From Ophiura sarsii (Eukaryota; Echinodermata; Ophiuroidea; Amphilepidida; Ophiuridae), in the NCBI GenBank assembly GCA_035610835.1, contig CM069454.1, forward strand, positions 65,132,883-65,196,882: a stretch of 64,000 nt of DNA, in the 5' to 3' direction. This document shows, piece after piece, positions 5,637 to 62,385 of the stretch. The notes beneath the pieces were generated by a model, which was not told where the DNA came from, made no database searches, and saw nothing but the letters and a program-made list of their open reading frames with translations. Both the position numbers and the translations under genes were made by a program. Within the stretch, counting starts at the first letter, position 1. Each line of letters starts with the position of its first letter.

Positions 5637-5644
5637 TGATTACA

Positions 5645-10841: not shown

Positions 10842-10980
10842 TACTTCTGTCAATACAGATGGTTGTACCCTGGTACATCCTATGGATTCTTTTATAACCT
10901 CATATCCAATAAGTACTGCTTTCCCCCCTCCTCCACCCCCAAAATTATCTGAAACTAATTCTTACTCCATTTTTTGTTTC

Positions 10981-20767: not shown

Positions 20768-21966
20768 ATTATCTGATAGTACAGAGAGGAAAATCCGTTG
20801 GGCTGTCAACCTCTTTAACCAGTGACAAAAAGAGAGAAACATACAAGCTTCATCGAACCCATCCCTCAACATAAGTTCCATCAATGTACATCTCGACAAT
20901 ATGACGAAAGACGAATTGAATTATTCAATATCTAGGTTTCTTTGTGAGGTAAAAAAACACTGATGGTGAACATTACCCTGGAAACACACTTCACGAGATG
21001 GTTATTTGTTTCCAGCTGCATTTCGAACTGAAGGGAATAGCCTACAAGTTCCTGAATGATCCTGCTTTTCTGGAACTTAAAAACACACTGGACAGAAAAA
21101 TGCAGGAGCGTGCCCAGTCTGGTATAGGGGCACATACAAAACAAGCCCAAGTTATCACAGTGGACGAGGAGGACATGCTATGGAAAAGTGAAATCCTTGG
21201 ATCATCAAATCCTACCCAACTTCTTAACACCCTGGTTTACATGGTTGGGTTAAATTTCGCATTGCGTGGTGGCCAGGAGCACAGGAGTTTAAGATGGAAA
21301 GAGCCCCAGCTTGAACTCTTAACAGACAGTACAGGAAACAATTTCCTCCGATACTCAGAGGATTGCTCTAAGACCAATCAGGGCGGTTTGAAGCATCGCA
21401 CAATTAAGCCGAAGGTAGTTGATGCATATGAGAATAAGAAAGACAGAAAACGTTGCCTTGTTACTCTCTTTAAGAAATACACGTACCACTGCCCGGAAAA
21501 CAAACCAAATGGGTTTTATCTACGACCCCTCGCCAAGCCTAAGGGAGCAATCTGGTATGCAGCAACACCAATTGGCAGACACAAGCTTTCCCAGGTTGTC
21601 TCAGAACTGTGCAAAAAGGGAGGCCTATCTGGACATCGTACAAACCATTCTCTACGCGCTACTGCTGCATCAAGGCTCTATGATGAGCAAATTGATGAAC
21701 AATTAATATGTGAAGTCACTGGACACAGATCCAATGCAGTCCGGAATTACAAACGCACAACCGTCACCTTAAAGCGCAAGGTAAACGCCGTCGTCCAAGG
21801 ACTAACAGTAGCTAATCCAAGCACAAGCGGTAGCAGTAATGTAAGTAATGAACCGGATGAAGATAATAATCAAGCACGTCATCAGTCTGTTTCAAGTGTC
21901 ATTGAAAATACAGGTCTTTCTGGTGCTACCAAGCACATTTCACTAACACTGAACTTTTATTTATAA
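20768..21966 (+). pseudogene. Crypton-like (DUF3504) tyrosine recombinase, exon 2, broken
   Basis: The exon opens LSDSTERKIRWAVNLFNQ, an N-terminal (SAM-like) core-binding motif of Crypton/ZMYM-type recombinases, then meets TGA at 20823-20825 where a tryptophan is usual. A one-base gain in an A-run near 20950 shifts the frame. From 20998 the frame is open to 21966. The catalytic domain has LRGGQEHRSLRW (first Arg region), NHSLRATAASRLY (His-x-x-Arg), TGHRS (His) and VRNYKR (nucleophile Tyr), that is, the R-H-R-H-Y set of tyrosine recombinases. The protein would cut and rejoin DNA for element movement. With one stop and one frameshift it is probably dead, unless these are sequence errors. Confidence 0.82.
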
Positions 21967-28542: not shown

Positions 28543-31215
28543 TTATTCTAAGTGTTTGTTGGTTATAGCAATCAATTGTTTACTCTTCTTCTGGCGTTGC
28601 TTTATTTTCATATCATGATACTCGAATAAGGTTGTTACTATGGTATAAAGAAAGGGGTTAATTGCCGAATTTATTGGTAATATGAAAGCAACTGTCCAAG
28701 CGTATATCACCGGATCCACGCTTATGATTCTTGATTGCACAAGAACACAAGCCATAACAAGAGGAACCCATGTAAAAAAGTCCGTGAAGACTATGACGGA
28801 CATTTTTGCCCCCATGCGAATTTCTTCCCCTTGGCTTCGGTTACGCCCAGCAGATTTGGCTGATCTTTTGACGGTAACAAATATAGCGATATAAAGAAAA
28901 GCGACCGTTAAAAAGCAAATCATATTGATCCCAATGAAAACTATAATCGAAAAATATGTCGCTAGTTTATATCCGGTGATCGTAGACTCTGAGAAAACAA
29001 AGTCGGTGCTGTCAATGTCTATACCGATGTCAAAAAAGATAACTCTATTGGCAGCGCTTAGTTTAAAAGAGTGATGAGATGGTGAAAAACCAGATGACCT
29101 GATATTCAGGTTAACTGTTTCGATCAGAACGGAAGACTTGTACGTGCTACCAATAGGTCGTAAAACGATAGGAATACCAACACACACTTCCGATACTTCA
29201 AACACGTCAGGATATGCGTTTTTTAAAATAATTGGTGTAACACTGAGAATTAAACCAGCAAACCAAATCAAAGCGGCACAAACCCTGACAGACGTAGACC
29301 CCAACCTGTAGTTGCTAAAGGGATTCGACGCTCCTTGAAACCTGTCTAACGAAATAAGTGTTATTAATAATACAGATGCCTCACTTGACAATATAGACAA
29401 TGCTCCGGCAATTTGACAGATTGTGCCATTCCGCCATTGATCAGAGTAAGACGGGAAGTATTCGGCGTAATAAACGTCAAAACCTGCCAACAATATCATG
29501 TTTACACCCATCAAACTATCTGATATCGATAAATTCATTATTAGAAGTGACTGAACTGTTGGGCGTTTATCTGTAACACGTAAGTATAATACTATACAAT
29601 TGCATATAATAGCTATCACACCTAAAAACCACATAGACACTCTCGGGGAAATATTTTCCAGCATTCTTTTACATGTAAGATAGACAGGACGAGGATTCGC
29701 AGATATACATTCCTTGACACCTGTATCAAAGCAACATGTAGCACTTTCATCCACAAATATTGTCGTGTTGTTCAGTCCATGAAAAGACGCATTCCTAATT
29801 AGTTTTAGCGGGTTTGATCTCAAATCAAGGACATTGATACAGGTGCCATTAAAAGCGTCCATTTCAATGTTTTGTATTTGATTACAGTGTAGATCAAGCT
29901 CCACAAGTTCAGTCAGTTCTGAAAAGACATATCTGGCTAGCATACTTATCCTGTTGTCCGACAGTCATAATATTTTACCAAACGTTTCTGGCACCAAACC
30001 AGTCAACGAGTTATTTCTTAAACTGATCACCTGTACATTAGTTAACCCTATGAAAGTTGTAATATTTATCTCAATTATTTGATTTTTATCTAAATAAAGT
30101 AACGATAAACTTGTCAAGTTTCGGAATACAAGGTTTTTCAGAGTTGACAGATCATTACTTGTTAAGTCTATTATTTCAAGATTTACAGCGGAATTAAATG
30201 ATGGTAAATCTGAAAGATTGTTGACAGAAAGATTTAAGTAGACCAAATTCACTAATGACGAAAGAGCAAATACATGCATTTTATGTATGCTGTTATGGCT
30301 AATGTCTAGGTACCGCAATGTTGTTAAACCATCAAATACGTCACGACTTATTTCAATTAGACTGTTGTTCTGTAATTTAATCGAGCGAATTCGAAACGCT
30401 GACGCTTGACCATTAAAAATAACGTCTGGTAACGAAACCAAGCTATTGCCATATAGGGTTAAAGTGTGTAATAGTGAAAGTGATTTAAATGTATCATATG
30501 TCAAATTGACTAACCCATTATTATGGAGGAACATTTGTAACAAACGAACGTTGTCACGAAATGTTTCTATTTGTAACGATGTTATCCGATTGCAACAAAG
30601 GTCTAAGATTTCTAAATATCTAAGGGTACTAAATACATCGTTTGATATTGTTGTTATTAGGTTATTATCTAGATATATCTCGCGCACTATTGAATTGATT
30701 GGAAAGGTATTGTTTAGCACCGATGTAATATTGTTACGACCTGCGCGAAGCATCCGTATAGGTTTTATATTATACATAACAGGTAGTGATAGTAACTGAT
30801 TGTTATCAACTTCCAATGTATTCAATCTAAGCAAGACAAAAGCATCTATTGGTAATGATATGAGATTGTTGTTTTCTATATAGAGAAATTTTAGTTTAAC
30901 CAATCCATGAAATATGCCTGTCGCCAAATATGATAAGAGGTTGTTTGAAAGACGAAGAGTTAACAAGCGACGTAATCTGACAAATACAGATTCTGGTAAC
31001 GAGATCAACTGATTTCTGGTTATTTCCAATTGATTTAAATCAGTAATTTCATAAAACACCCCTTGTGGAAGAGTGATTAGATAGTTGTTATAAAGACATG
31101 TCACCCCAAAACAGAACACCTCAAAGGAATAACACCGTGCATCAAATATATTATTACTGACAGAGTATTTATAGCTAGTGCTCTGTCCCTTAATATCTCC
31201 TAAACACATTGACAT
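28543..31215 (-). pseudogene. LRR-containing GPCR (relaxin-receptor/GRL101-like), one in-frame TGA
   Basis: A single intron-less block encodes about 14-16 leucine-rich repeats (31100-29830; typical phrases LRLSNNLLSYL, LYIENNNLISLP, LDISHNSIHKM), a cysteine cap (CCFDTGVKEC) and a rhodopsin-type seven-helix domain. Visible are TM1 (WFLGVIAIICNCIVLYL), TM2 (NLSISDSLMGVNM), DRF in place of DRY after TM3, TM6 (KMSVIVFTDFFTWVPLVM) and TM7 (LPINSAINPFLYT, the NPxxY motif). TM6/TM7 are of the LGR/RXFP type. Such receptors bind peptide or glycoprotein ligands at the cell surface. TGA at 29965-29967 lies in frame between LRR and cap (ETFGKIL, stop, LSDNRISML), and that repeat is also a few residues short, so a small deletion may be involved. 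No signal peptide is visible at the first ATG (MSMCLGDIKG), so an upstream exon is likely. Everything else is open, so the lesion is young or an error. Confidence 0.8.
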
Positions 31216-31348
31216 GCGTCCGCATGTTATGATGGCGTGTCAGTTAAAGACAACCTGGGCGTCGACCAACAACACGAAGGTCAATTTATGACATTTTGCA
31301 ATACCTTACACGTTCATGACGTTACTACTCCTGTCGTGAATTAGTTTG
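31216..31348. other. Upstream flank of the GPCR gene
   Basis: This holds the 5' side of the receptor on the minus strand. No clear TATA box or exon can be called. Confidence 0.35.
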
Positions 31349-32752: not shown

Positions 32753-33808
32753 TCTTACTATAATTCACCGTATGTTGTATGTATGTATGTATGTATGTGA
32801 GTATGTATGTATCCTGAAAAGGCTTTCTCATTTTGCATTTTAAAGCCGTGAATATTTCACTGATACTAAATAAAGACCGGACACGGGTTATAAGCTATAA
32901 ATGGCCGAAAACCGTACAGAATTGACCGAGATATGAGCAAAATGATGTCCAATTTAGGCCTTTTCAGCCCGGCTTTTGAGACTAATTTCTACGGGCCATG
33001 TTTGTTTTTCTCTGCGTACACTGTAACCATGCAGTCGGCGCGCGTTACACATAGCGCGCAGCAGTGCGCCATGCAACATAAACGCGCACACGCACTACAC
33101 CCACGCACCCCTACACACGCGGGCGGAGGTTTTGAGTTGAGATAAGCCACGGGGCGGGCGGAGGCGCGGGGACGGGCGGGGACGGCAGGGCGGGCGGGGG
33201 GGGGGGGGGGGGGGGGCGCAGCGGGTCATAAGGTAACGAAATAATGTGGTTTCTGATCAAACAAAACATGATATGGTGAATCTAAATTACGTAACATGGT
33301 GTCAGATGTGGGATTTGATACTGTATGCGACACGCTGGCGGACAAATATTGTAGAAATACGCCGCGCTACGGGAGATGGTTAAGGTTAGGCCTTGGCGTT
33401 GAGATATATAAGCTGCGGGACGGGAACTTTAGGCCTTGGGTTGAGATATGCCACGGGCGGGGCGGGGGCGGTGACGAATGGGGGGGGGGGTATAATGTGG
33501 TTTGGGAGGCAGGGGGTTAATGAAGAAATGTGATGCTAAATTGCGTAACGGATATGCAGCGGGCGGGAGCGGGCGGGGCGGGGCAGGGCGCCGGGTAGTG
33601 ACTGGTGGGCTACGGGAGATGGTTCGGGTTTAGGCCTTGGAGTTGAAATATGCCACGGGGTGTGGGCGGGCGGGGGTTCTATTCCTGTGTGTTTCGTTAT
33701 AAATTTTCCAACACTTAGGCCTATGTGTTGTTTCATTTGTAGGTGTTCTATCTGGTAGGCCCTACTCCCTAGCGGGAGAGCCCGTCCGAAGGACGGGCGT
33801 TCCGCTAG
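32753..33808 (+). mobile_element. Helitron-like element, array unit 1
   Basis: Starts TCTTACTATAATTCACCGTA directly after an A and ends with the hairpin GCCCGTCCGAAGGACGGGC, then GTTCCG and CTAG. A TC 5' end, a hairpin a few bases before a CTRR 3' end, and insertion between A and T are the marks of Helitrons, which move by rolling-circle replication. A TATG microsatellite, a conserved block with ATAAATGGCCGAAAACCGTA, and G-rich runs fill the body. No Rep/helicase is encoded, so it is non-autonomous. Confidence 0.82.
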
Positions 33809-34785
33809 TCATACTATAATTTGCCGTATGGTGTATGTATGTATGTATGTATCCATAAAAGGCTCTCTCAGTTTGCAACTAAACGCCGTGAACATTGCAC
33901 TGAATAAAAGATGATTATAATGTGAGTGTTATAAGCTATAAATGGCCGAAAACCGTACAGAATTGACCGAGATATGAGCAAAATTATGGCAATTTAGGGC
34001 CTTTTCAGCCCGGCTTTTGAGACTATTTTTTACGGGCCATGTTTGTTTTTCTCTGCGTACACTGTAACCATGCAGTCGGCGCGCGTAACACAAAACGCGT
34101 CGCAGTGCGCCATGCAAAATAAACGCGCACGCACTACACCCACGCACGCCTACAAAGGCGGGCGGGCAAATATTGGAGAAATACGCTGCGCCACGGGAGT
34201 TGGTTACGGTTTAGGCCTTGGGGTTGCATAAGCCACGTGGCGGGGGCGGGAGCGGGTGACGGGTTAGGGGTTGTGTGTAATGATCCTCTTATGGCCTATG
34301 TTAGGGTTATGTGGTTTGGGATAGGGTTAATAAAGAAATGTATTATTAAATTGCACATCGATGGTGTCAGATGTGGGATTTGATACTGTGCTAAATTGTA
34401 AATTGCGTAACGGATATGCCACGGGGCGGGAGCGGGCGGGGCGGGGACAGGGCGGGGAGGGACGGATGGGTTACGGGAGATGGTTAAGGTTTAAGCCTTG
34501 GAGTTGAAATATGCCACGGGAGGTGGGCGGGCGGGGGGGGGGGGGGGGAATGGGGTGGGGGAGGTGCTTTTTCAAGTTTTTTTTATTGAAATTTGAAAAC
34601 TTTTAAATTAGGCCTACTACAAAACCTTTTGATTTAAAACAAAAATGTTTTAAATATTGTTCTATTCCTATGAGTTTCGTTATAAATTTTCCAACACTTT
34701 AAGTTGTTTTATTTTGTAGGTGTTCTATCTGGTAGGCCCTACTCCCTAGCGGGAAAGCCCGTCCGAAGGACGGGCGTGCCGCTAG
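33809..34785 (+). mobile_element. Helitron-like element, array unit 2
   Basis: Begins TCATACTATAATTTGCCGTA immediately after the CTAG of unit 1 and ends GACGGGCGTGCCGCTAG. Same block order as unit 1 with small losses. Head-to-tail, no spacer. Confidence 0.82.
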
Positions 34786-36059
34786 TCTTACTATAATTCA
34801 CCGTATGTTGTATGTTTGTATGTTTGTATGTTTGTATGTGTGTATCCATAAAAGGCTCCCTCATTTTACGCCTAAACGCCGTGAACGTTGAACTGATGAA
34901 AGATGATTATAATGTGAGTGTTATAAGCTATAAATGGCCGAAAACCGTACAGAATTGACCGAGATATGAGCAAAATGATGTCCAAGTTAGGCCTTTTAAG
35001 CCCGGCTTTTGAGACTATTTCCGTACGGACCATGTTTGTTTTTCTCTGCGTACACTGTAACCATGCAGTCGGCGCGTAGCACATAACGCGTCGCAGTGCG
35101 ACATGCAAAATAAACGCGCACACGCACTACACCCACGCACCCCTACACACGCGGGCGGTTAAATACGGAGAAATACGCTGCGCCACACGGGGTTGGTTAT
35201 GGTTTAGGCCTTGGGGCCTTGAGATAAGCCACGGAGCGTGGGCGGAGACGGGGACGGGGCGGGGACGGCAGGGAGGGCGGGGGGGGGGGGGGGGCAGCGG
35301 GTCATAAGGTAACGAAATAATGTGGTTTCTGATATAACAAAACATGATATGGTGAATCTAAATTACGTAACATGGTGTCACTAGATGTGGGATTTGATAC
35401 TGTATGCGACACGCTGGCGGACAAATATTGGAGAAATACGCCGCGCTACGGGAGATGGTTAAGGTTAGGCCTTGGCGTTGAGATAAGCCGCTGGGCGGGG
35501 AACTTTAGGCCTTGGGGTTGAGATATGACACAGGCGGGGCGGGGCGGTGACGAATGGGGGGGGGGGGGGGTGTAATGATGTAATGTGGTTTGGGAGGCAG
35601 GGGTTAATGAAGAAATGTAATGCTAAATTGCGTAACGGATATGCCACGGGCGGGGCAGGGGCAGGCGGGGGAGTGACTGGTGGGCTACGGGAGATGGTTA
35701 AGGTTTAGGCCTTGGAGTTGAAATATGCCACGGGCGGGGCGGGGGCGGTGACGAATGGGGGTTGTGATGCTAAATTGCGTAACGGATATGTCACGGGGCG
35801 GGGGCGGGCGGGGCGGGATGGTGACGGTTGGGGAACGGGAGATGGTTAAGGTTTAGGCCTTGAAGTTAAAATATGCCACGGGGCGTGGGCGGGCGGGGGT
35901 CTTTGAATTAAAACAAAAATGTTTTTGATATTGTTCTATTCCTATGTGTTTCGTTATAAATTTTCCAACACTTTTGTTTTGTTTCATTTGTAGGTGTTCT
36001 ATCTGGTAGGCCCTACTCCCTAGCGGGAGAGCCCGTCCGTAGAACGGGCGTTCCGCTAG
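34786..36059 (+). mobile_element. Helitron-like element, array unit 3
   Basis: Begins TCTTACTATAATTCACCGTA after unit 2 and ends GAACGGGCGTTCCGCTAG; the hairpin has one changed position (CCGTAGAACGG). It is the longest unit because the internal block with TTAATGAAGAAATGT and GGAGATGGTTAAGG is repeated. Confidence 0.82.
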
Positions 36060-36921
36060 TCATACTATAATTTGTCTTATGGTGAGACTATGTATGTATC
36101 CATAAAAGGCTCTCTCAGTTTGTAACTAAACGCCGTGAACGTTGCACTGATAAAAGATGATTATAATGTGAGTGTTATAAGCTATAAATGGCTGAAAACC
36201 GTACAGAATTGACCGAGATATGAACAAAAGGAGTCAAATTTAGGGCCTTTTCAGACTGTTTCTACGGGCCATGTTTGTTTATTTTTCGGTGCGTACTGCA
36301 ACCATGCAGTCGAGCGCGTAACACATAACGCGGCGTAGTGCGCCATGTAAAATAAACGCTCACACGCACTACACCCACGCCCCCCTACACACGCGGGCGG
36401 ATTGGAGAAATACGCTGCGCTGCTGAAGTTGATTAATTTAGGCCTTGAAGGTGTATTATAAGCACGGGGCGGGGATGGCGGGCGGTAGGGGCGGGGATGG
36501 CGGGCGGTAGGGGCGGAGACTGCGGGCGAGGGACGGCAGGGGGACGGCGGGCGGGGCGAGGGGAGGCCATGAAGTAATGAGGTTTGGGAGGCAGGGAGTT
36601 ACTGAAACACGCTACGGGAGTTGGTTAATTTAGGCCTTGAAGGTTTAGATAAGCACGGGGCGGGCGGGCGAGGGGACGCCATGAAGTAATAAGGTTCGGG
36701 AGGCAGGGGGTTAATGAAGAAATGTGATACTTAATTGCGTAACACTAACAGGGAGGGTCACGAGGTGGAAGGAAATAGTGTGGACAAAAGTATAACCCAG
36801 GGGATACAGCTTGGGGAGATGGTTAAGGTTTAGGCCTTGGATGTTGAGATAAGCACGGTGCGGGGGTGGCGGGCCGGGCAGAATGCCGGGACGAGGGGGT
36901 TTAATGAAGTAATATGGTTTG

Positions 36922-37590
36922 TAGGGTTGGGCAAATCACCATACTTTTTTTGAAACGAGTTGTTTCTATGGCCAAATTCTGCGTAGAATCCAAATCTGTA
37001 AAAAGAAATGGCCTCCAATGACGTTTTACGTCGCTACTGATTAAAAATTCAAAATGGCCGCCAAAATGACTAAATTTGGCTTGTTATTGGCATATTTAAG
37101 GCTTTCAGTGTGTCTTTTTATATGTTTCAGGGTCTGGAATAGTTGAATTGGATACTCTAAACACTAATTGGTGTGTATTGATGACATTTGACCTACATAC
37201 TAATTTCTAAATTGAAAATGGCCGTCAAAATGACGTAATTTTGCCTATTTGTGGCATATTTTGACAGATATACGGCTTTCAATATGTCTTTTTTATATGT
37301 TTTCAGGGTCTGGCAGTTGACTTTGATGCTTTAAATACAAATTGGTGTATATGGATGACATTTGAACCTAGACTACTGATTTAAACATTCAAAATGGCCG
37401 CCAAAATGGTGTAAATTTGCCTGTTAATTGTATATTTTCACAGATACATGGTTTCCGCTACGTCTTTTTATGTTTTCAGGGTCTGGGAAGTTGAACATAG
37501 GTTTCATAGTCAAGGATCACAAAGTTGACATGTGTAACATGATAAGCAGTACCTATTATAGACATTCTTGTACCTATAAGACATTCTTTA
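36922..37590. repeat. Left long inverted repeat of the nested transposon
   Basis: Starts TAGGGTTGGGCAAATC. It contains three tandem subrepeats of about 175 bp, each with AAAATGGCCGYCAAAATG and a TTTTCAGGGTCTGG block. The whole arm pairs with 39215-39895. The 5-bp duplication GTTTG precedes it (36917-36921). Confidence 0.9.
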
Positions 37591-39218
37591 AAGTAGTAAC
37601 AGTGGGTCTTGACAACACAACCAAAGCTGCAGGTCATAAACTGTATGATGTAAAGGCCGACCACATCACCATTCAGGGTCCAAACGTACCTCGGAAAACA
37701 ATGACCACTGGGTACAGTGAAAATGTCAGTCATTCAGGAGCTGATGGTGCTGCAGCATATGAATTGAAATTGAAATGTCTAGTGGTATTGGCTGATTGCG
37801 ACATCGATGAGATAAAAAGCTCAATTGATTTCTGGATGTCTGATCGTGCTGGTGACTGTGCTTCGCTTCTAGAAAATCTTGGTGTGACCGAAGAGAAGAT
37901 TCTCAAATGTACTGCTCACATCATATTAGGTGCAGATCATGCAGCAGATAAAGTGTTCAGAAACCTTGAACAGAAAATCGGAGTTCAGAAGCTGCGCTAC
38001 ACGTGACTGCTGGCGAGAAGGTATTCACATCACCGGGAACGAGTGTCCATACATTGGCCCTTATTGCAATTGCGAAGCAAGCTATACTATCTCCAAGTCA
38101 TGCTGCTCACTCCATATCCCTCTTCAATGAATACACTTCATGGATGGATACGCAGGGCATTGGCCATGATGGCTTCAAAGGGTTCACTATAGATTTGGCA
38201 GAATCGCTGAGAGTGCAAAGGAATTCCTATGTCGTCGGCAGTCTCATAGACTTTTTCGATGCCATGTTGACATAAACTCAAATAAGTTAGTTCTGGCTGT
38301 CTCAACATACATACAGAATGATTGGTTCCTGTGTTGTGCCGAAATCTATTCCCAACTGGGTGACGCTTTCATTTTCCCATTGATGGACCTTCTGGGAATA
38401 GATGACAGAGGCAGCGATGTTGACATGAGTGAGCGCAACTGGGCAGGAGTACGATCATTCTTTGAACAAACAAAAGTTGCCTAAACTGAAACAAGTGCGA
38501 GATGGCGCAACGATTGCAGATAATGGCCAGAGACGACTTTATGCAGCGGTACTTGACGAAGTGATTGATATGTTGGAGAGACAGTTATCCCAGATGGCAT
38601 TTTTCAACATTAGCGATGAGAGTAGTGCAGTAGACATGGATGAAACCAAGATGAAATTTGCCCCTCTGACAAATCTAGGGTGCGAAGCAGAATTTGCTAA
38701 ACTGGATGTTCGCATTATGGCAAGTGGTGGATCTACATCAGTTCAAACCCACTCTCGTAAAAACATCATCACAACGAATGGGTTACTGGCTGATCCCTCC
38801 TTCACAACACTAAGCAACACCGAAAAACACCAAAGATGGAAATGGGCAAGAACGTCTGAAAATGTTTCAGATGTTAAGGAAATAGAGTCAAATTACCTGC
38901 TGACAGTCAAAATATCACACCGATTGGCACTTGCAAAGAAGGCAGAACTAAAACAGGAAGAAACTCACCAGAACAATGAAACCTTTTGAAGCATGTAAGG
39001 ACCACCAGGGTTCAGTGACACCAGATTGCGTCGCCTTACTTGAGCAGTTGACTGACAAAGACCTTATCTGTGAGATAGGGTATCTGAGGGCTACAGTATC
39101 CCCAAATATTCGGCAAATGCGACAAACAAAAGTAGATGGCAGAAACAAAATGGTTACATTTTCTAATGATGAACCAAAACAATCAATCCGCAACGCTGTG
39201 ATATTGATGCTCTGTTAA
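37585..39218 (+). pseudogene. Unassigned transposase, broken by frameshifts
   Basis: The frame opens VVTVGLDNTTKAAGHKLYDV, continues DIDEIKSSIDFWMSDRAGDC, then KCTAHIILGADHAADKVFRN and, after a frame change near 38000, AGEKVFTSPGTSVHTLALIA. Two more shifts (near 38280 and 38440-38500) lead to LGCEAEFAKLDVRIMASGG, SRKNIITTNGLLADPSF and KWARTS. A last shift near 38970 leads to LTDKDLICEIGYLRATVSPN followed by IRQMRQ. Two aspartates in GLDNTT and MSDRAGD settings suggest an RNase-H-like DDE/D enzyme. I recognise no named superfamily. Its place between long TIRs marks it as the transposase of this element. With at least four frame breaks this copy is inactive. Confidence 0.65.
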
Positions 39219-39895
39219 AGAATGTCTTATAGGTACAAGAATGTCTTTAATAGGTACTGCTAATCATGTTACACATGTCAACTTTGTGATCCTTGACTAT
39301 GAAACCTATGTTCAACTTCCCAGACCCTGAAAACATAAAAAGACGTAGCGGAAACCATGTATCTGTGAAAATATACAATTAACAGGCAAATTTACACCAT
39401 TGTGGCGGCCATTTTGAATGTTTAAATCAGTAGTCTAGGTTCAAATGTCATCCATATACACCAATTTGTATTTAAAGCATCAAAGTCAACTGTCCAGACT
39501 CTGAAAACATATAAAAAGACATATTGAAAGCCGTATATCTGTCAAAATATGCCATAAATAGGCAAAATTACGTCATTTTGGCGGCCATTTTGAATTTAGA
39601 AATTAGTATGTAGGTCAAATGTCATCCATACACACCAATTAGTGTTGAGAGTATCCAATTCAACTATTCCAGACCCTGAAACATATAAAAAGACACACTA
39701 AAAGCCTTAAATATGCCAATAACAAGCCACATTTAGTCATTTTGGCGGCCATTTTGATTTTTTAATCAGTAGCGACGTAAAACATCATTGGAGGTCCAAA
39801 ATGTTGATGGATTTGGATTCTACACAAAATTTGGCCATAGAAACAACTCGTTTTGCATCAGTTTTGTAAAAAAAGTCTAGATTTGCCCAACCCTA
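39215..39895. repeat. Right long inverted repeat of the nested transposon
   Basis: Reverse complement of 36922-37590 with limited divergence, ending GATTTGCCCAACCCTA, then the duplicated GTTTG at 39896-39900. It includes the same three subrepeats inverted. Confidence 0.9.
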
Positions 39896-40130
39896 GTTTG
39901 GGTGGCAGGGGTTAAAGAAGAAATGTGATACTAAATTGCGTAACAGGGAGGGTCACGAGGTGGAATGAAATAGTATGGTTCCTCAAAAGTATAAACAATG
40001 GGATAACACTTTGGGTAATGACGTTATAAATTTCCCAACACTTATGTGTTGTTTCATTTCGTAGGTGTTCTATCTGGTAGGCCCTACTCCCTAGCGGGAG
40101 AGCCCGTCCAAAGGACGGGCGTCCCGCTAG

Positions 40131-41293
40131 TCTTACTATAATTCACCGTATGTTGTATGTATGTATGTATGTATGTATGTGAGTATGTATGTATCCCGAA
40201 AAGGCTTTCTCATTTGGCATTTTAAAGCCGTGAATATTTCACTGATACTGGATGATGACCTGACACGGGTTATAAGCTATAAATGGCCGAAAACCGTACA
40301 GAATTGACCGAGATATGAGCAAAATTATGTCCAATTTAGGGCCTTTCAGCCCGGCTTTTGAGACTATTTCTACGGGCCATGTTTGTTTTTTCTCTATGCG
40401 AACACTGTAACCATGCAGTCGGCGCGCGTTGCACATAGCGCGCAGCAGTGCGCCATGCAAAATAAACGCGCACACGCACTACACCCACGCACCCCTACAC
40501 ACGCGGGCGGGCAAATATTGGAGAAATACGCTGCAGCACGGGAGTTGGTTACGGTTTAGGCCTTGGGGTTGCATAAGCCACGGGGCGGGGGCGGGGCGGT
40601 GACGGTTAGGGGTTGTATGTAATGATCCCCTTAGTGCCTACATGTAGGTTATGTTAGGGTTATGTGGTTTGGGATGGGGTTAATAAAGAAATGTATTATT
40701 AAATTGCGTAACGATGGTGTCAGATGTGGGATTTGATACTGTATGTGAGACGCGGGCGGACAAATATTGGAGAAATACGCCGCGCTACGGGGGATGGTTA
40801 AGGTTAGACCTTGGCGTTGAGATAAGCCGCGGGGCGTGGAACATTGGGCCTTGGGGTTGAGATATGTCACGGGGCGGGGCGGGCGGGGCGGTGACGAATG
40901 GGGTTGTGTGTTATGATGTAATGTGGTTTGGGAGACAGGGGGTTAATGAAGAAATGTGATGCTAAATTGCGTAACGGATATGCCACGGGCGGGGGCGGGG
41001 GAGTGACGGGTGGGGTACGGGAGATGGTTAAGGTTTAGGCATTGGGAGTTGAAATATGCCAAGGGGCGTGGGCGGGCGGGGGGTCTTTTCTAATTGAAAT
41101 GTGAAAACTTTTGAATTAATCCTACTACAAAACCTTTTGATTTAAAACAAAAATGTTTTAGATATTGTTCTATTTCTATTATGTGTTTCGTTATAAATTT
41201 TCTAACACTTTAAGTTGTTTGATTTTGTAGGTGTTCGATCTGGTAGGCCCTACTCCCTAGCGGGAGAGCCCGTCCGAAGGACGGGCGTCCCGC
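40131..41293 (+). mobile_element. Helitron-like element, array unit 5, end lost
   Basis: Begins TCTTACTATAATTCACCGTA after unit 4 and keeps the terminal hairpin, but reads GTCCCGCCATTAC where the others have CCGCTAG. The last bases are lost just before the Gypsy LTR at 41313. Confidence 0.78.
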
Positions 41294-41312
41294 CATTACA
41301 AAATAATAATAC

Positions 41313-42210
41313 TGTAGCGGGAATTGGATTTAGTTTTTTTTTAATATTTAAAAATGTATTCATCATATGTTAAAATATTACCCTTATTTTACCTTGTCCG
41401 TGAGTGGGCCATGAAATGCCCTGGTCCCCACCCACGGAGCAATTGGTTAGCAATTGACTAGCAATAGGGGTATGACCCTATTGCCTAATTGGTTTAGGCG
41501 TGCGTGGTACAGCGGAAAGCCAAACGGAAGCGCCATTGATGTTCGGTGTACACGCGACTAAGTAAAATACGTGACGTTGTGGTGGAAAATGTCTAAAACG
41601 AAAGGATATATTGCTCGTTGTAAGCGATCAGTTGGATTTATCAATAGAAGATTTTTCCGTGGATGATTTAGGGAATCGTGACAGAAAGTGTGACGGAAGT
41701 AATAGGTGAACTGAAGATTGGGAATGCTCATATTGTAGAGCGATACTAACGCTCCATGGTGGTACAATTTTCTTTCGTTTTGGTGGTACAATCTTTATTT
41801 TTTGGTGGTACAATTTTCAAATCTCCAATTTCAGTTTCTTTTTGATCCTTAATTCTAAGTTTTATTTTTAGTCTTCCCCATTTTTCACTTTGGTACAATT
41901 CTCACTTTCAACTTTATTTTCGTCAATCTGGGCTAAGTTATGTAAATAACACTTGGAATTTGTAGATGCTGTAGTTGTGGAGTGGTGTGGTTGCGAAATA
42001 AATGGTACATAGAATATTAACCTAATTGTCCGGTGCTTTGTTCTTCACGGTAGAAAAGCAGGTTCTGCCCTGCAAACTAACCCACGTGGTCTTATAAATC
42101 AGGTTTCTAATTTCAACCCTGCCCAAACTTAAATTAAACCCAAAAAAAATTAGTGGTGTCAGATTGGCAAAATTGCATTCTGCACGCTTCGTGGTCTCGG
42201 TCCCGCCACA
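41313..42210 (+). repeat. 5' LTR of Ty3/Gypsy element
   Basis: Begins TGTAGCGGGAATTGG and ends CGGTCCCGCCACA. The 3' copy starts TGTGAAGCGGGAATTGG, so two bases were lost here. It contains three GGTGGTACAAT phrases (41758-41815). A primer-binding site follows at once. Confidence 0.9.
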
Positions 42211-42304: not shown

Positions 42305-44186
42305 ATGAGTGAAACAGAGCGTCGTGTGAGTGAAACAGAGGGGCATCGTGCGAGTGAAACAGAGCGTCGTATGAGTGAAACAGAGGGGCATCGTGCGAGA
42401 GCAACAGAGCGTCGTATGAGTGAAGCAGAGGGGCATCGTGCGAGAGCAACAGGGCGTCATATGAGTGAAGGAGAGGGGCATCGTGCGAGAGCAACAGGGC
42501 GTCATATGAGTGAAGGAGAGGGACATCGTGCGAGAGCAACAGGGCGTCATATGAGTGAAGGAGAGGGGCATCGTGCGAGAGCAACAGGGCGTCGTATGAG
42601 TGAAGGAGAGGAGCGTCATGGTGGTGGAGGTGACGTGGAGAGTGTTGGTGGTAGAGCTGCAGAGAGAATTGGTGGCGAAGTGGATTTGGGTGTTTTGGGA
42701 AATATCGACAAAAGTGGTGAGAGTCGACCCTTGAGTGATGTGGAGCGTGTCGACAAGGGTGGAGATTGTCGACCTTTTGGTAACGTGGGAAGTGTCGACA
42801 AAAGTGGAGGTCGACAGTGGAATGATGATGGAGGTGCTGGTTTTGGTGCTAGTGGCGAGGTCAGACGTAGTGTCGGTGTTGGTGGAGGTCGACAGGGAGG
42901 TGATGTTGAGAGAGTTGCCGAAAGTGTAGGAGGTAGTAGAATGAGGAGTTCTGAACGAGGTGGTGGTGGGCATGAAAGTGGTGGTGAATCTGTGTATTTT
43001 AGTAGTGAGGAGAGTGAACAGATTGTGTTGGTGCCTCAGGGTATTCCTGAACGAGTGCGGCGTGTAAAAGAGTGGATTAGTGAGGGTGATTCTTTCCATG
43101 AGGCTAATAGTCCGGTAATCCGTGAGCAATTTCAGAGGGAAAGAGAGAGGCGTGGACAACAAGGTGCAATTAATGCGATTGTTGACAGACAGCACGTGGC
43201 TGTCGAGGTTGGCGAGGAGCCGAGCAAGGGGAGTGGTGGAGGCATGATGAGAGTTGGGGATATGGGCGTTGCGTATAGAGAGCGCATGCTCGCAGAAAAG
43301 GCAGAGAGGATGAGAGCGCGTGAGGTAAGGGTTGACCAGAGGGAGAGTGGTGTGCGTTGCAGAGAGGATGTGTGTGAGGAGAGAGCGAAAAAGTTAGATG
43401 AAGAATGGGTTCATTAGGAAGAGAGGCAAACAGGGTTGGAGGGTGAACGGAAAGAAAATGAAGAGAGTTTGAGAGAGCGAGAACAGAGTTTCTCCGCTAA
43501 CGTTGAGGCTGAGCAGAGGCGCTTGACGAAAGTAAGGGATGAGGTGGAGTGGCAAAAAGAGGAGGTAGAGAAGAGTAAGCACGAGTTGGCGAGTCATGAA
43601 CACAAGAAGAGGGTGGACCGTGAACGAAGGGGATATGAAGAGAGTTTGAGAGAACGAGAACGGTGTTCCCGTGCGGCAGAAGAGGAGGCTGAGCAGAGGC
43701 GCTTGGCGAACGAACGGGATGAGGTGAAGTCCCAGAAAGAGGAGGCAGAGAGAAGAAGGTGTGAGCGGGAGAGTCGCGAAGAATACGAGAAGAGGTTAGA
43801 AGAGGTCCGGAGAGAACACGAGAAGAGGGTGGAAGACGTCCGAAGGGAATATGAAAAGATTTCGAGAGAGCGAGAACAGAGTCTTTGCGCTAAAACTGAG
43901 GCTGAGCAGAGGCGCCTGTCGAAGTGGAGGGAGGAGGTGATGCGGGAGAAAGAGTGGTTGGAGAAGGCTAGGTGTGAGTCAGTGAGGCGTGAACACCAAA
44001 TAGACGAGGGATCAAAGGAAGTACGATTCGACCGTAACAGGGCCGAACAGGTACAGGGTCCCGTAGGGAGATGGAGGTCGTGTCAGACTGAAGGTAGTGA
44101 TCGGGAGTTATCGCAAGGAGGAAGGCAGGATGATGTATTTGAGAGGGAGATGGGGCCTACGGTCCCAGAAAGGAGTGGGAGTTCCC
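42305..44186 (+). pseudogene. Gypsy gag, first (duplicated, truncated) copy
   Basis: Starts at ATG 42305 (MSETERRVSETEGHRASETE), with six to eight 14-residue repeats (MSEGEGHRARATGR type), a Gly-rich stretch, then a long Glu/Arg-rich coiled coil. TAG at 43415-43417 breaks the frame where copy 2 has a tyrosine codon. The frame then stays open to the duplication junction at 44186, where it runs into LTR sequence. The capsid and zinc-knuckle parts are therefore missing from this copy. Confidence 0.85.
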
Positions 44187-44963
44187 ACGGAGCAATTGGT
44201 TAGCAATTGACTAGCAATAGGGGTATGACCCTATTGCCTAATTGGTTTAGGCGTGCGTGGTACAGCGGAAAGCCAAACGGAAGCGCCATTGATGTTCGGT
44301 GTACACGCGACTAAGTAAAATACGTGACGTTGTGGTGGAAAATGTCTAAAACGAAAGGATATATTGCTCGTTGTAAGCGATCAGTTGGATTTATCAATAG
44401 AAGATTTTTCCGTGGATGATTTAGGGAATCGTGACAGAAAGTGTGACGGAAGTAATAGGTGAACTGAAGATTGGGAATGCTCATATTGTAGAGCGATACT
44501 AACGCTCCATGGTGGTACAATTTTCTTTCGTTTTGGTGGTACAATCTTTATTTTTTGGTGGTACAATTTTCAAATCTCCAATTTCAGTTTCTTTTTGATC
44601 CTTAATTCTAAGTTTTATTTTTAGTCTTCCCCATTTTTCACTTTGGTACAATTCTCACTTTCAACTTTATTTTCGTCAATCTGGGCTAAGTTATGTAAAT
44701 AACACTTGGAATTTGTAGATGCTGTAGTTGTGGAGTGGTGTGGTTGCGAAATAAATGGTACATAGAATATTAACCTAATTGTCCGGTGCTTTGTTCTTCA
44801 CGGTAGAAAAGCAGGTTCTGCCCTGCAAACTAACCCACGTGGTCTTATAAATCAGGTTTCTAATTTCAACCCTGCCCAAACTTAAATTAAACCCAAAAAA
44901 AATTAGTGGTGTCAGATTGGCAAAATTGCATTCTGCACGCTTCGTGGTCTCGGTCCCGCCACA
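44187..44963 (+). repeat. Partial LTR inside the element (start of duplicated unit)
   Basis: Identical or nearly so to LTR positions 41434-42210. It begins at ACGGAGCAATTGG directly after the gag bases GTTCCC. This is the junction of a tandem duplication, with CCC shared at the join. Confidence 0.9.
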
Positions 44964-48000: not shown

Positions 48001-48525
48001 AGTACATGGAGTAGTGGACCGCAGCCTGGTAATTATAGTATGCCGCCTCCAGCTGGTTATGGCGGGCAGACTTTCGGTGGTGCTCAACCGCTTCATGGTC
48101 CTACGTCCATGCCAAGCCAGAAAGGTCAGGAATGTTACAAGTGTCGACAGCCAGGACACCTTGCGAGGGATTGTAAGGCTGAGGTGCGCCAGAGTTGCTT
48201 TAAGTGTGGGGAGATTGGCCATTTTGCGAGAGAGTGTCCGACCGCCGTTCCGCAAGGTTGCTTTAAGTGTGGGGAGATTGGCCATTTCGCGAGAGATTGT
48301 CAGGCCGCCGTTGCGCCGAGTTGTTTTAAGTGCGGGAATGTAGGGCACATTGCCCGTGAGTGTAGTCACAAAGGAATAGTGTGTTACCGCTGTAAGCAAG
48401 AAGGCCACATTGGGCCGAATTGTCCTGCACAAGGTACCGGCATAATGTCGGGAAACGGGGGTGGACCGACCCAAGGGCCCGGGGGCAGGTCTCCGACGGC
48501 AGCAGGGTCCAACAAGGGGAAGTAA
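45058..48525 (+). pseudogene. Gypsy Gag polyprotein, full-length copy with one TAG
   Basis: About 1,155 codons from ATG 45058. Order: 14-residue N-terminal repeats (to 45370); a Gly/Ser-rich part; a long Glu/Arg coiled coil (46020-46950); an Arg/Ser-rich stretch; a capsid-like (Retrotrans_gag) domain with WRAFHRHFEVCREYN and WYAELQLREQKPNESYYDL (47215-47560); and five CCHC zinc knuckles (CYKCRQPGHLARDC at about 48133, then CFKCGEIGHFAREC, two more CFKCG types, and CYRCKQEGHIGPNC at about 48381). Gag packages element RNA into particles. TAG at 46702-46704 replaces a tryptophan codon present in copy 1 (43925-43927). TAA ends the frame at 48523-48525, inside the start of pol. Confidence 0.88.
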
Positions 48526-51500
48526 GGAGAAGGAAGGAAGAGGAGAGGAGCGATGGGGAGAGAGGGGTGCCGGAGAGCAATGAACATGGCGGGGGTGTCA
48601 GGGGTCAACAATGGGGATATCACAAGCAAAATGGTTGGACGAGTTATCAGTTGGAGCGTGAGTGGCAGCCGGATGCTAATTATTGCAACTATTGTAAAGA
48701 ACCAGGGCATTGGAAGCGAGAGTGTCCGACGTTACGAGCTAAGCAAGGGATGTTAGGAACACGGGGTGTATTGAGGGGGAAAGAAGAAGAAGTGGTGAGA
48801 CGGGAGAAGGAGCGAATAGAACAACAGCGTAGGAGACTTCATGAGTCGAACAATAAAGAGGGACACCAAAAGAAAGATGTTGAAGTACGAAAGGAGGAGA
48901 AGAATCAGAAGAGCGAGGAGAAGGGTCAACCAGCAGAGAAGCTGGGGAAGATAGAACCCGTAAAGAATGGAGTAAATGATAAGGTCCAAAAGGTTATTAC
49001 GGTGCAAGGAGTGAGTGTAAAAGAGGTGAAGCCAGGACGAGATTTCTACGCACCGGTAGAAGTTCAGAAAGAGGAGATGTTGTTGTTGGTTGATACCGGG
49101 AGTTCCAACACCTTATTGACCAATGAACAGTATCTCCGCATCCCTAGAGAGGCTAGACCTGAATTAAAACCAGTAAATATAGAACTGATCCAAGCAGATG
49201 GTGGAGGTGTCGAGATTCATGGTGGGGTCGAAGTTGAGTTGAAGATTGGCGGCCAGAGTCTTCAAGTATTTGTGGTAGTGGCGGATGTGAAGAGTGGCAT
49301 GTTAGGGATGGATGTCCTTGAACGAGTGCACGCCGTTCTAGATTTTGGGAAGTGTCAGTTAGGGGTTAGAGGCGGAGTGGTGCAATTACGATCGAGTAAG
49401 GGTGACAAGCTGCACGTGCGGGTGTGTGTCACAAGGGATGTCACAATTCCGGCCCGGCATCAGCTGTGTGTGTCGGCAGACATAGCAGATTCGAGTGAGA
49501 AGAGGTTGGGGATGGTGGAGCCACTGGATGGTAGTATTCTGTTAGACGAAGGGTTGATGGTTGGAAGAGGTATAGTCACGGCCGGAGATGGGGCATTTCC
49601 GGTTTCGGTCATTAACGTGAGTGATAGGCCCCGCATCATGAAACAAGGGACAGTACTGGCCAAGATGGTAGAGGTTGGTGAGGAAGATGTGTGTGAAGAT
49701 GGAGTGACGGGCAACAAGGAAGAGAGTGTGGAGGGCATGGATTTACCAGAGTACTTAGAGGAGTTGGCTAAGAGAAGTACTGAAGGAATGGGGAAAGAGG
49801 ATAAGGATAAGGTTTTGACCCTGTTGATTAAGTACCAGGATGTATTTTCGAGTGGTGAATACGATATAGGGAGAACAACCCTTGTTAGGCATTCGATTGA
49901 CACAGGCGACGCCCGACCCATACGTCAACCACTTAGACGATCAGCACCTGTGCAGAGGGAGGAAGTAGAACGACAGGTTAAGGAATTGGTAGATAAAGGA
50001 ATGATAAGTCCCTCCGATAGTCCTTGGTCAAGCCCGGTGGTGTTAGTGGCAAAGAAAGACGGCTCTAAGCGACTGTGTCTAGACTATAGGAAATTAAATG
50101 AGGTAACGGTCAAGGACGCATACCCGTTGCCTAGGATTGATGACTCATTAGATTCCCTCGGAGGTGCTAAGTGTTTCGTCGCGTTGGATCTGGCAGCTGG
50201 GTATTGGCAGGTGGAGATGGATGAGGATGCTCGTGAAAAGTCGGCATTCTCAACGGCAAGTGGGCTATACGCGTGGAATGTGTTACCTTTTGGGCTATGC
50301 AATGCACCCTCCACGTTCGAAAGATTGATGGAGAGTGTGTTGGCTGGATTGAGGTGGGAGACCTTACTAGTATACTTGGACGACGTAATAGTATTCGGAA
50401 ATACGATATCAGAAACGGTAGACCGGTTAGAGGCTGTACTAGTTAGATTCCGAGAGGCCGGGCTTAAACTAAAACCGTCGAAGTGCCACATGTTTAAGGA
50501 GGAAGTTAACTACCTGGGGCACGTAGTGTCAGAGAAGGGAATTCATACGGACCCGAAGAAAATTGAAGCTGTAAAGGAGTGGCCAACACCGAGGACGCCG
50601 ACGCATGTCCGGAGTTTTCTGGGGTTGGCATCGTATTACCGCAGATTTATCCGAGGTTTTGCCGACATTGCAGCGCCATTGCATAAGCTGACGGAGAAGG
50701 AGGCGAAGACGAATTTTGAGTGGACAGAACCGTGTCAGGAGGCTTTCGACACACTGAAAGATGCACTGATTTCGGCACCCATCTTGGGGTACCCGAGAGA
50801 TGAGGGACAGTTTATCCTCGACACCGATGCCAGTAACTTCGCACTTGGAGGTGTTCTGTCACAAGAGCAAGATGGAGTAGAAAGGGTGATTGCCTACGGT
50901 AGCAAATCCTTGTCGAAACAGGAGAGGAATTACTGCGTGACGAGAAGGGAGTTGTTGGCAGTGGTTGTCTTTGTAAAGAAATACCGACATCATTTGCTGG
51001 GTAGAGTGGTAAAAGTGAGGACAGACCACGGGTCTTTAAGGTGGTTGAAGAATTTCAAGAACCCCGAGGGTCAGTTAGCCCGGTGGCTGGAGGTTCTGTC
51101 GTCGTTTAACCTGTTAATAGAGTATCGGCCGGGTGTGCGTCATCAGAATGCGGATGGGCTGTCCCGCATTCCATGTAAACAATGTGGACAGAATGAGGCG
51201 AAGCGGGTGGCCGAGATAAAACGAGACGAGCGGGAGCAATGGGAAGAGATGAAATTTGTGGTGGGGGATGTTGAGGAAGTGACCGAGGAGAGAAGGGAAA
51301 TGTGTGACATGGGGTGCCAGACAGAGGAGAGAAGGGAAAAGTGTGACCTAGGGTGTCAGACCGAGGATCTAGATGTGGTGGCAGAGTCGGAGAAGGGAGG
51401 GGTGAATGTAGCCACTACTGTGTTACAAGAGGAGGCTGATGGCGAGGTAGAGAAAAAGGCTGTGTTACCAGAGGGGATCGATGGTGAGATAGAGGAAATG

Positions 51501-53212
51501 GAGGCTGATCAGCAATCCTTAGGTTTTGAGCCTATGATGAAAGAAGAGTGTGTGAGTTTGCCGACAGAGTGTTCGGAGGTGAGACGAGTCGGTATAGAAC
51601 CCGTGGTAACCTTAGCCGATATCCGTGTGGCACAATTAGAGGATGAGACAATAGGGTTTATATTGACGAAGAAGGAGGCTGGGGAAGGGAGACCGACTCC
51701 AGAAGAGGTGTCTGGGCTTTCGTCCCGCGCCAAGACGCATTGTGGACTGTGGGATATATTGACAGTAAAGGAGGGAGTGCTAGCTAAGAAGTGGGAGAGT
51801 GATAGTGGGAAAGAGGTTAAGTGGTTAGTAGTGTTACCAAGGGGTCTGCGAGAGAAGGTTTTGGACGAGTTACATTCGGTAAGATCCGCTGGGCACTTAG
51901 GTCGGAACAAAGTAAAGCCTAAAGTGTCGGAAAGATATTACTGGGCCGGTATGGAAGCGGACATTAGAGCTTAAGGTGTATTGGATGTGCGCGGAAGAAA
52001 AACCCGCAGCGGAAACACCGAGCCCCATTGAAGCAGCACAGAGTCGGAGCTCCACTTGAGAGAATTGCGATTGACATACTAGGACCTCTGACTGAAACCC
52101 ATCATGGAAACAAGTATATCTTGGTAGTTGGGGATTATTGGACCAAGTGGATGGAGGCCTATGCAATAGAGGATCAACAGGCGGAGACGGTGGCGACGAA
52201 GCTGGTAGGAGAATTTGTGTGTCGGTTTGGAGCTCCGGCAGAGTTACATTCTGATCAGGGGCGGAACTTTGAGTCCGTGGTATTTCGGGAGATGTGTCGA
52301 CTGATGGGTATAAGCAAGACGCGCACGACACCGTATCATCCCTGTTCGGATGGGATGGTGGAGAGATATAACCGAACAATTGTCAATGCCGTGTCACTTA
52401 TGATACAACCGCATGAACATCAACGGGACTGGGATGAGTATTTACCTTTCGTAGGTATGGCGTATAGAGCCAGTGTGCAGGCCACGACGGGTGAGACGCC
52501 GAACATGATGATGTTTGGCCGAGACGTTCGGCTACCGGTTGATTTGGTAATGGGAGGGGTGCCTGACGAAGTGGAATGTGAGACATACTACGCGGATGAG
52601 GTTCGGGAGAAGTTGCGAGAGGTTCATGAGCGAGCTAGACAGACACTTGGGTTGAATCTCCGGCGGCAGAAGAGAAATTATGATAGGCGTAAGTTTGGAC
52701 CGGTGTACCAGGTGGGGCAATTTGTTTGGCTACACCACCCTGCGAGACAACCCCGGCTTTCCAAGAAACTAACGTTGCCTTGGGAGGGGCCATACTTGGT
52801 GGTGACGGCTTTATCGGACGTAACATTCCGAATACAGAGGTCCAGCAGAAGCAAACCGATGGTGGTACACGCCAATCGGCTTAAGTCGTATGAAGGGCCC
52901 GAGTTAGTAGCGTGGAAGTACCAAGCACCAGAGGTGGTTGAGGATAGTGGCCTGGTGGGGGCCGAAGTGAGGGACGAAGGAATAGAAGAGGGAGGGAATA
53001 AACCGACCAACGGAAGTGAGGCAGTTGAAGTCCACAAGGAGGCTGAAAAGCAGAGGGAGGAGGATGTCATCAAGGACCCACCGGAGATTAGAGTTAGAGT
53101 ACCTGAGGTGATTGATGAAGAAGGAGTAGAGGAGGAATGGGAGGATGTGGAGGAAAAAGGTCCTCGGCGGAGCCGACGGCGTGGCCGATGTAAACCTGTT
53201 AGGTACCGCTAG
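48420..53212 (+). pseudogene. Gypsy Pol: protease, RT, RNase H, integrase; one frameshift
   Basis: The pol frame is -1 relative to gag and overlaps its end (48420-48525). No canonical slippery heptamer is clear. Order: a sixth zinc knuckle (CNYCKEPGHWKREC, about 48685), aspartic protease LLLVDTGSSNTLL (about 49083), RT with ALDLAAGYWQVEM and YLDDVIVF (about 50371), RNase H with FILDTDASNFALGG (about 50815) and chromatin-free integrase. The integrase H2C2 finger (HLGRNK..., CIGC) is split by a frameshift at about 51970, giving a stop at 51972-51974. The core then has IDILGPL, HSDQGRNFES and MVERYNRT (the D, D, E residues) and a GPY/F-like module (WEGPYLVVTAL). It ends KPVRYR at 53212. There is no envelope-like gene. 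Confidence 0.88.
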
Positions 53213-53942: not shown

Positions 53943-54452
53943 TGTGAAGCGGGAATTGGATTTAGTTTTTTTTTAATATTTAAAAATGTATTCATCATAT
54001 GTTAAAATATTACCCTTATTTTACCTTGTCCGTGAGTGGGCCATGAAATGCCCTGGTCCCCACCCACGGAGCAATTGGTTAGCAATTGACTAGCAATAGG
54101 GGTATGACCCTATTGCCTAATTGGTTTAGGCGTGCGTGGTACAGCGGAAAGCCAAACGGAAGCGCCATTGATGTTTGGTGTACACGCGACTAAGTAAAAT
54201 ACGTGACGTTGTGGTGGAAAATTTCTAAAACGAAAGGATATATTGCTCGTTGTAAGCGATCAGTTGGATTTATCAATAGAAGATTTTTCCGTGGATGATT
54301 TAGGGAATCGTGACAGAAAGTGTGACGGAAGTAATAGGTGAACTGAAGATTGGGAATGCTCATATTGTAGAGCGATACTAACGCTCCATGGTGGTACAAT
54401 TTTCTTTCGTTTTGGTGGTACAATCTTTATTTTTTGGTGGTACAATTTTCAA
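53943..54452 (+). repeat. 3' LTR, truncated
   Basis: Begins TGTGAAGCGGGAATTGG and follows the 5' LTR closely to GGTGGTACAATTTTCAAA, then changes abruptly to unrelated sequence. About 390 bp of LTR and the 3' target duplication are missing. Confidence 0.88.
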
Positions 54453-58833: not shown

Positions 58834-59806
58834 TTACAGACCTAAGTTAAGTGAGACTGCAAGTCTACTTTGCATGGAATCTTTTACATACCCATCCTTC
58901 GCCGTTTCGGACCGCCATCGCCCATGCTTCTTAAAGAGCCGGTCCGGAACACCAAAATTGGCTGCAGCGGTTGCCCCACCTGCTCGAAGACTATGTAACC
59001 CAAAACTCTTAGGGTTCGCACCAACCGTAGCCAATGCATCTTTAAAGATTTCTAAACATCTCGTGTAGGAAAGCTGCCCCTCTCTAAGCCTGTAAGAATT
59101 ATCTGATTTCATAAAAATAAGAGGTCTGAAGATAAAGCCTTCGTCAGAATCCGACGTTATCTTAGCTAGAGAGAGGTACCTACGTAACATCTTAACTGGA
59201 CAACACAAGGAGTCAGTAGCTCCGATCAAAACCCAAGCACCTTGTCTGAAAATATCGGTCTTATATTTTGAGATAAAAATGTGCACATGTGAAACAAACA
59301 ATTGAATATCACATCGTCTAATATTTATAAGCTCATTAAATCTAAGAAAACCTGCATATGCTAATAAAATCATAGTACATAATCTAAGGTTCTTCAGGTT
59401 ATCTTCAATACCAAAGTTATTGATGAGAAGTCTAATCATCTCAGGCGAAACAGGCTCTTTCTTAACAATAGGTTTAGCCAGTATTTTCTTAAGACCGAGC
59501 AGAAGATTGGAGAGAAATTTAGAGTCACAGGGGTTCACAGTAACATAAGGTTGACAGTCCAGACGCCACTTGATAGCGTAAAATGTAGACTGGATCCTAG
59601 ATAATGGGGCTTTGCCATTATAAAGAAAGATAAGATATCTAGCAATATCTTCAGCACTGGCCAAAACAGGAGACATACCATTATCATGAGCCCACTTCTC
59701 CCAATAGGAGAGCATTCTATTATATTTATCAGTTGTACTCTCAGCTCTCGATGCTTCTAAAACTGTCTTCATAGTAAATTTATAACTATCATCGGGTTGT
59801 TTCCAT
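58834..59806 (-). CDS. DIRS-like element: tyrosine recombinase exon
   Basis: On the minus strand an acceptor (TTGCACTTGCAG) opens an exon reading WKQPDDSYKFTMKTVLEASR, then a SAM-like N-domain (STTDKYNRMLSYWEKWAHDN) and a catalytic domain with AGFLRFNELINIRR (Arg), FGLHSLRAGGATAAA (His-x-x-Arg), KKHGRWRS (His/Trp) and DGYVKDS (nucleophile Tyr). The enzyme integrates the element's DNA by strand exchange in place of a DDE integrase. The frame is open for about 320 codons to the stop at 58834-58836. The first two bases needed for the split Arg codon come from the donor at 60110, so phases agree. Confidence 0.85.
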
Positions 59807-60109
59807 CTGCAAGTGCAATAATAAAATTAAATATACATGTTATCAAATTACCTCATACCAGTATTCTTATAATATTCTCACAGAATCAATAACCAACTGG
59901 TTAATGTCAAACATGATTCTGTGATCAAACAGTGTATCAAACACTGTAGCCTTCGGGCTCATTTTGGTCTCGCCAAATTTAGGGCTAGTCAACGGTCTCA
60001 CCGTTACATATGGCCCGGGTGGCCTTACCCTTATCTCTAGCCCAGTGGCCATGATCATGATGATCATAAAAAATCTATCTCAACACACACACAATCTTAG
60101 CCCTCCAAC
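59807..60109 (-). other. Predicted intron 2 of the DIRS-like element
   Basis: 303 bases on the minus strand, from AAG/GTTGGAG to TTGCACTTGCAG. The 66-codon frame inside has no domain. Joining the exons restores one continuous frame. Confidence 0.65.
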
Positions 60110-62118: not shown

Positions 62119-62385
62119 CTATAAAAACAAATACATATAACAACGGTCACTTCATGTCATATAAATAAAACAAGGATGAAAGCACTCAGGCTCGAGGAAA
62201 CAATATCCGATACCAGTTATCATATTATCATTAATCATAACACATTATGCTAAACATCCATCATCATTATCCCACTCAACGTGGTAACATACAGAACAAA
62301 TCACAATCAACTCAACATTAAGTTTGATCGATAATCGATAATATTACATGAACGTATTCTCACCCCTACTACTGCTGGGTACCAC
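62119..62385 (-). other. Predicted intron 1 of the DIRS-like element
   Basis: 267 bases on the minus strand between GAAG/GTGGTA and TTTTTATAG. A G from the gag exon plus GT of the next exon make a glycine codon, so the phase is kept. Confidence 0.65.

Follow-up and report, generated by a model that had tools for sequence, protein, structure and literature searches.

A 64,000-nucleotide stretch of the genome of the ophiuroid Ophiura sarsii (contig CM069454.1, positions 65,132,883 to 65,196,882; hereafter the window) carries at positions 36922-39895 a 2,974-bp transposable element, which starts with TAGGGTTGGGCAAAT at 36922 and ends with its complement at 39895. Its terminal inverted repeats (TIRs) measure 670 bp on the left and 681 bp on the right, with 93.4% identity (compared without gaps, the arms matched over 341 nt at 94% and over 278 nt at 99%), and GTTTG flanks the element on both sides (36917-36921 and 39896-39900). 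A first-pass annotation had described these ends, the long TIRs and the exact GTTTG copies, all of which were confirmed. When the flanks were joined without the element, they aligned unbroken to a host repeat that recurs in the window (copies at 35504-35636 and 40844-40975) and, apart from a gap immediately ahead of the junction, to a third copy (33428-33549); the junction in the host-repeat copies reads GGTTTGGGAG, and all three show GGTTTGGG across this empty site. Since the joined flanks align across the junction to empty repeat copies, the element is a genuine insertion into the host repeat. The insertion target is part of an array of related repeat units, partly G-rich, at 32753-41334.

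The coding part between the TIRs had been called protein-like, and indeed three of its segments match the intact 954-residue protein of a related element (L029, see below) at 90, 57 and 60% identity. The segments span only residues 402-935, and the left arm stops at 37591, two bases short of the coding match. In the window copy, an inverted copy of the element's 3' end has taken the place of the first ~400 transposase codons. The window element, broken and shortened, is a non-autonomous member of a DNA transposon family of animals.

A DNA search of the 1.57-Gb genome returned at least 116 matches, including at least nine near-complete copies of the window type, the window copy among them. These nine are 96.6-100% alike in pairwise comparison, depending on the zone; in none does an open stretch of the coding part exceed 191 codons, and they carry both private and shared insertions and deletions. 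Among 13 stretches with a readable first acidic motif (GLDD), the second Asp was changed to Asn in the window copy only, and the first Asp to Glu in one other (L016). L029, in turn, is a 4,406-bp element with one intact frame of 954 codons; its inverted ends are 263 and 278 bp long (83%). The earlier reading of long TIRs as a primary trait is thus not supported, even though some family copies have arms of 670-1,119 bp. The L029 ends are 79-80% identical to those of the window element over 157-186 bp, and mobilization of the window family in trans is therefore plausible. Separately, we observed that element L025 (300-2997) has inverted arms of ~1.1 kb, each of which codes for N-terminal transposase sequence, in both orientations, and an exact 7-bp target-site duplication (TSD); it is an independent foldback derivative, whose long arms are of separate origin.

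A protein search that took the window copy's read-through as query yielded 91 matches, the full-length ones being ~910-950 residues long (e.g., LOC106176709 of Lingula anatina, 941 residues), with shorter ones in Patella caerulea and Lottia gigantea; an alignment search added two relatives of 962 and 970 residues. The matches attributable by name belong to Lingula, Patella and Lottia, three genera of animals from two phyla, and the relatives' genes are annotated as uncharacterised or hypothetical.

To define the TSD, we examined 36 stretches, 21 of which had both ends. An exact 7-bp TSD was found in 11 of the 21 (L009, L010, L011, L012, L017, L019, L021, L023, L025, L030 and L033), where the chance of such a match is ~8e-5 per pair (assuming 60% A+T); L032 matched at six of seven bases, the window copy had 5 bp, and none of the 21 had an exact TSD of 8 bp, the length typical of hAT elements. 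The 11 exact sites read nTnnnAn, position 2 being T in all 11 and position 6 being A in 10. The 5-bp duplication, proposed earlier as part of the element's signature, is thus seen in the window copy only and is not a family signature; for the window TSD, the best reading is GTTTGGG, of which the left copy has lost two G. As a side observation, the flanks of L026 agree in nine of ten bases, and at L014 (gtaaca) and L018 (ataacag) target-like words recur 3-4 bases out of register on one side.

The fold, including that of the DDE (Asp-Asp-Glu) domain, was addressed by structure prediction, with AlphaFold2 run on protein P0007 and a 45-row alignment. The resulting model had a mean predicted local distance difference test score (pLDDT) of 82.9 and a predicted template modelling score of 0.65. 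Its strands (393-400, 412-420, 427-435, which is broken, 472-475 and 495-497) follow an RNase-H-like order, and a helical insertion precedes helix 747-763. The model contains an RNase-H domain of the Hermes type, with its helical insertion. All eight Foldseek matches at E <= 0.001 were to Hermes, and VIA gave 16.7 for Hermes (334 residues, 4.2 Å), 8.7 for RAG1 and ~8 for integrases and ISCth4. The candidate catalytic residues are conserved among the relatives (D399 in 40/42, D400 in 41/42, D476 in 44/45 and E750 in 42/42), as are CxxH (44/45 and 45/45), N590 and R591 (both 45/45) and F592 (44/45). D476 fell on Hermes D248 in all three MAFFT settings. We infer that catalysis is by D399 or D400, D476 and E750.

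The N-terminal domain of L029 (298 residues), when modelled alone, reached a mean pLDDT of 81.5, with block means of 89-98 over residues 21-180. Foldseek found no PDB match to this model below E 2.4, a result that by itself excludes no fold. In a word-based search the domain was confined to this family (15/15 matches), and its cysteines are conserved; it probably binds the element ends.

Within Pfam and NCBIfam, profile searches bore out the earlier statement that the coding part fits no named superfamily. Pfam gave no named transposase family among all matches listed for the window frames and for eight relatives (the latter at E <= 1), nor among 25 of the 40 weak families listed for 45 relatives, and NCBIfam gave none for two proteins. 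For comparison with hAT, we used the profile PF05699, which finds at least 127 places in the same genome (150 of 285 candidates scored), to locate and inspect 21 loci, and assembled 11 hAT proteins from this genome together with the verified Hermes sequence. Small profiles proved weak even within hAT, since comparisons of hAT with hAT in hhalign gave P 3.9e-6, 0.0022 and 0.035. Alignment registers were judged in two of the hhalign comparisons with the family; one placed TDRA...CxxH on Hermes 248-268, in agreement with MAFFT, and the other placed NRFGRIAELAKEYLSWRESI on TRWNSTYTMLRSILDNWESV, both in a sensible register and neither significant.

Taken together, these results make it likely that the window element belongs to a family of cut-and-paste DNA transposons that are very divergent relatives of hAT, being itself a non-autonomous deletion/inversion derivative of an autonomous form with a Hermes-like DDE transposase. 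The annotation had argued from TSD length that hAT was not the usual fit; this no longer holds, as the predicted fold, the nTnnnAn target pattern and the TAGGG/CAGGG ends all point to hAT-like mechanics. Several observations weigh against this reading. No in-register 7-bp TSD was found in eight of the 21 two-ended elements (L013, L014, L016, L018, L026, L029, L031 and L042), the intact L029 itself among them. BED and hAT-dimerisation are absent from the Pfam matches of the eight relatives (E <= 1) and from the 25 of 40 families listed for the 45. Comparison of the family core with seven hAT sets in hhalign gave P 0.043-0.42, against 0.036-0.63 for three reversed controls, and another comparison with a hAT profile gave P 0.1; at the level of the reversed controls, sequence kinship with hAT lacks support. 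Finally, E750 fell on Hermes E572 in one of three MAFFT settings and D399/D400 on Hermes D180 in none, and the counterpart of Hermes W319 is a phenylalanine (F592), with R591, of the Hermes 318/319 R/W pair, conserved. On the strength of the predicted fold and the target pattern, the family is filed as hAT-like and not as proven hAT.

Set beside known hAT elements, the family shares the Hermes-type fold with its helical insertion, in prediction, yet differs in its 7-bp TSD (8 bp in Hermes), its length of ~910-970 residues, its distinct N-terminal domain and its inverted ends of hundreds of bp, hAT ends being given as 10-25 bp (PMC3942097). The hAT TSD is usually 8 bp, but hAT5 and hAT6 make 5 and 6 bp, and the rust-fungal hAT7, known since 2025, makes 7 bp (PMC12730594). 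The 2015 Repbase Update paper illustrates text searching with hAT families whose annotated TSD is 7 bp (PMC4455052), and therefore 7-bp hATs are not new in themselves. While hAT7 shares the 7-bp TSD, it is classified by transposase similarity and groups with fungal and plant Ac/Tam3 hATs (PMC12730594); the animal family described here lacks such similarity to the hATs in our set, which was without hAT7 sequences. Like it, hAT5 and hAT6 depart from 8 bp, but their TSDs are 5 and 6 bp and they are placed with Blackjack and other animal hATs (PMC12730594). Tentatively, the family may constitute a separate superfamily of cut-and-paste transposons in animals, as yet unnamed and sister to hAT. It would share the catalytic architecture of hAT but have its own cysteine-conserved N-terminal domain, targets of 7 bp (nTnnnAn) and inverted ends measuring hundreds of bp, without hAT similarity detectable by the profiles tried.

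We consider it unlikely that the family belongs to another superfamily for which no solved structure was at hand, such as KDZ (Kyakuja), Kolobok, Academ or Dada. Kyakuja does make 7-bp TSDs, as does fungal hAT7 (PMC12730594), and the phrase '7 bp target site' occurs in the Dada paper; however, two Kyakuja families have CA..TG ends and no TIRs (PMC12730594), in contrast to the TAGGG/CAGGG ends and TIRs seen here, and no KDZ family is among the Pfam matches of the eight relatives or the 25 of 40 families listed for the 45. Slightly less likely still is membership in the P superfamily, as a remote branch resembling Galileo of Drosophila. In Galileo, non-autonomous copies carry long inverted ends with internal repeats, TIRs reach 1.2 kb, and the TSD, GTAGTAC, is 7 bp long (PMC2775673); 7-bp TSDs, arms of such length in some copies and, in the window copy, tandem repeats recur here. 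Galileo, a P-superfamily member, has another target consensus, however, nTnnnAn being looser than GTAGTAC; no THAP or P-element family appears among the same Pfam matches, and the nearest solved fold is that of Hermes, P-element chains not being among the fold matches listed, which proves nothing alone. It seems very improbable that the window copy is a single exception in which a hAT5-type enzyme produced a true 5-bp TSD: GTTTG is exact on both sides, hAT5 makes duplications of that length, and the empty site fits a 5-bp event or a 7-bp one minus two bases equally, but of the seven other two-ended near-full copies of the 2,974-bp family, four (L009, L010, L011 and L012) have the exact 7-bp TSD, three (L013, L014 and L016) lack one in register, and a 5-bp TSD occurs in none of the seven. 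Lastly, L029 has an intact frame and no TSD, as a captured or domesticated host gene might, yet this origin of the coding part can be practically dismissed, as the relatives sit inside inverted-repeat elements with common ends, the protein is predicted to fold as a DDE transposase, and the copies are dispersed with TIRs and TSDs.

Returning to the hAT-like reading, the ends, the 7-bp duplications, the genome copies and an intact gene are directly in hand, with the fold as a prediction. The autonomous form would encode one transposase of ~910-970 residues, in which an N-terminal helical domain, presumably DNA-binding, is followed by a DDE domain that is predicted to be RNase-H-like and, like that of Hermes, to be split by a large insertion of helices. 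This enzyme would bind the TAGGG/CAGGG ends and excise the element, perhaps through hairpins by analogy with hAT, and the element would then be joined to target cuts that are staggered by 7 bp and lie in nTnnnAn sites. The window family probably arose when the inverted 3'-end copy replaced the 5' part of the gene, after which it would have multiplied, plausibly with an L029-like transposase acting in trans, and decayed.

Features of the window element and its flanks (positions in the window)
Feature	Position	Strand	Basis
Left target-duplication copy GTTTG	36917..36921	.	flank comparison, empty site
Left TIR, ~670 bp, inverted copy of the element's 3' end	36922..37591	+	
Tandem ~176-bp repeats within left TIR	37100-37495		
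Transposase remnant, residues 402-535 of the 954-residue L029 protein, 90% identical	37593..37994	+	
First acidic motif, GLDN	37605-37616	+	counted from reading frames
Second Asp (SDRAGDC)	37842-37844	+	counted from reading frames
CxxH	37908-37919	+	counted from reading frames
Transposase remnant, residues 536-857 of L029 protein, frameshifted	37997..38965	+	
R of RFG motif	38191-38193	+	
Conserved Glu (GCEAEF)	38684-38686	+	
Transposase remnant, residues 846-935 of L029 protein, different frame	38931..39200	+	
Right TIR, 681 bp	39215..39895	+	
Right target copy GTTTG(GG), read as complete 7-bp duplication GTTTGGG	39896..39902	.	

Elsewhere in the window, a retrotransposon-like pol region (48396-53212) lies between near-identical direct repeats (41431-41730, 44184-44483 and 54063-54362), with a duplication of ~2.75 kb inside, and its frame at 48396-51974 has Pfam matches to reverse transcriptase, RNase H, protease and an integrase zinc-binding domain. 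At 58834-62146, a reverse transcriptase frame adjoins a tyrosine-recombinase (Phage_integrase) frame, an arrangement known from DIRS-like elements, and a frame with DUF3504 and Phage_integrase matches (20953-21966) is possibly a tyrosine recombinase of Crypton type. A galactose-3-O-sulfotransferase-like gene is present in two copies ~5.5 kb apart (5626-6507 and 10825-12288), which share DNA blocks of 94-98% identity; its Pfam match comes from the second copy. On the minus strand, 28543-31239 holds a leucine-rich-repeat receptor with 7tm_1 (Pfam on 28543-29961), adjoined by a second leucine-rich frame.

As Pfam and NCBIfam showed no model for this family, a curated one would mend the uncharacterised and hypothetical annotations of its members. 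The family would also widen the range of target spacing known with a Hermes-like active site, and its intact copy supplies a testable candidate transposase. Moreover, long 'foldback' ends arose more than once here: those of the window family derive from the 3' end, and those of L025 hold N-terminal coding in both arms.
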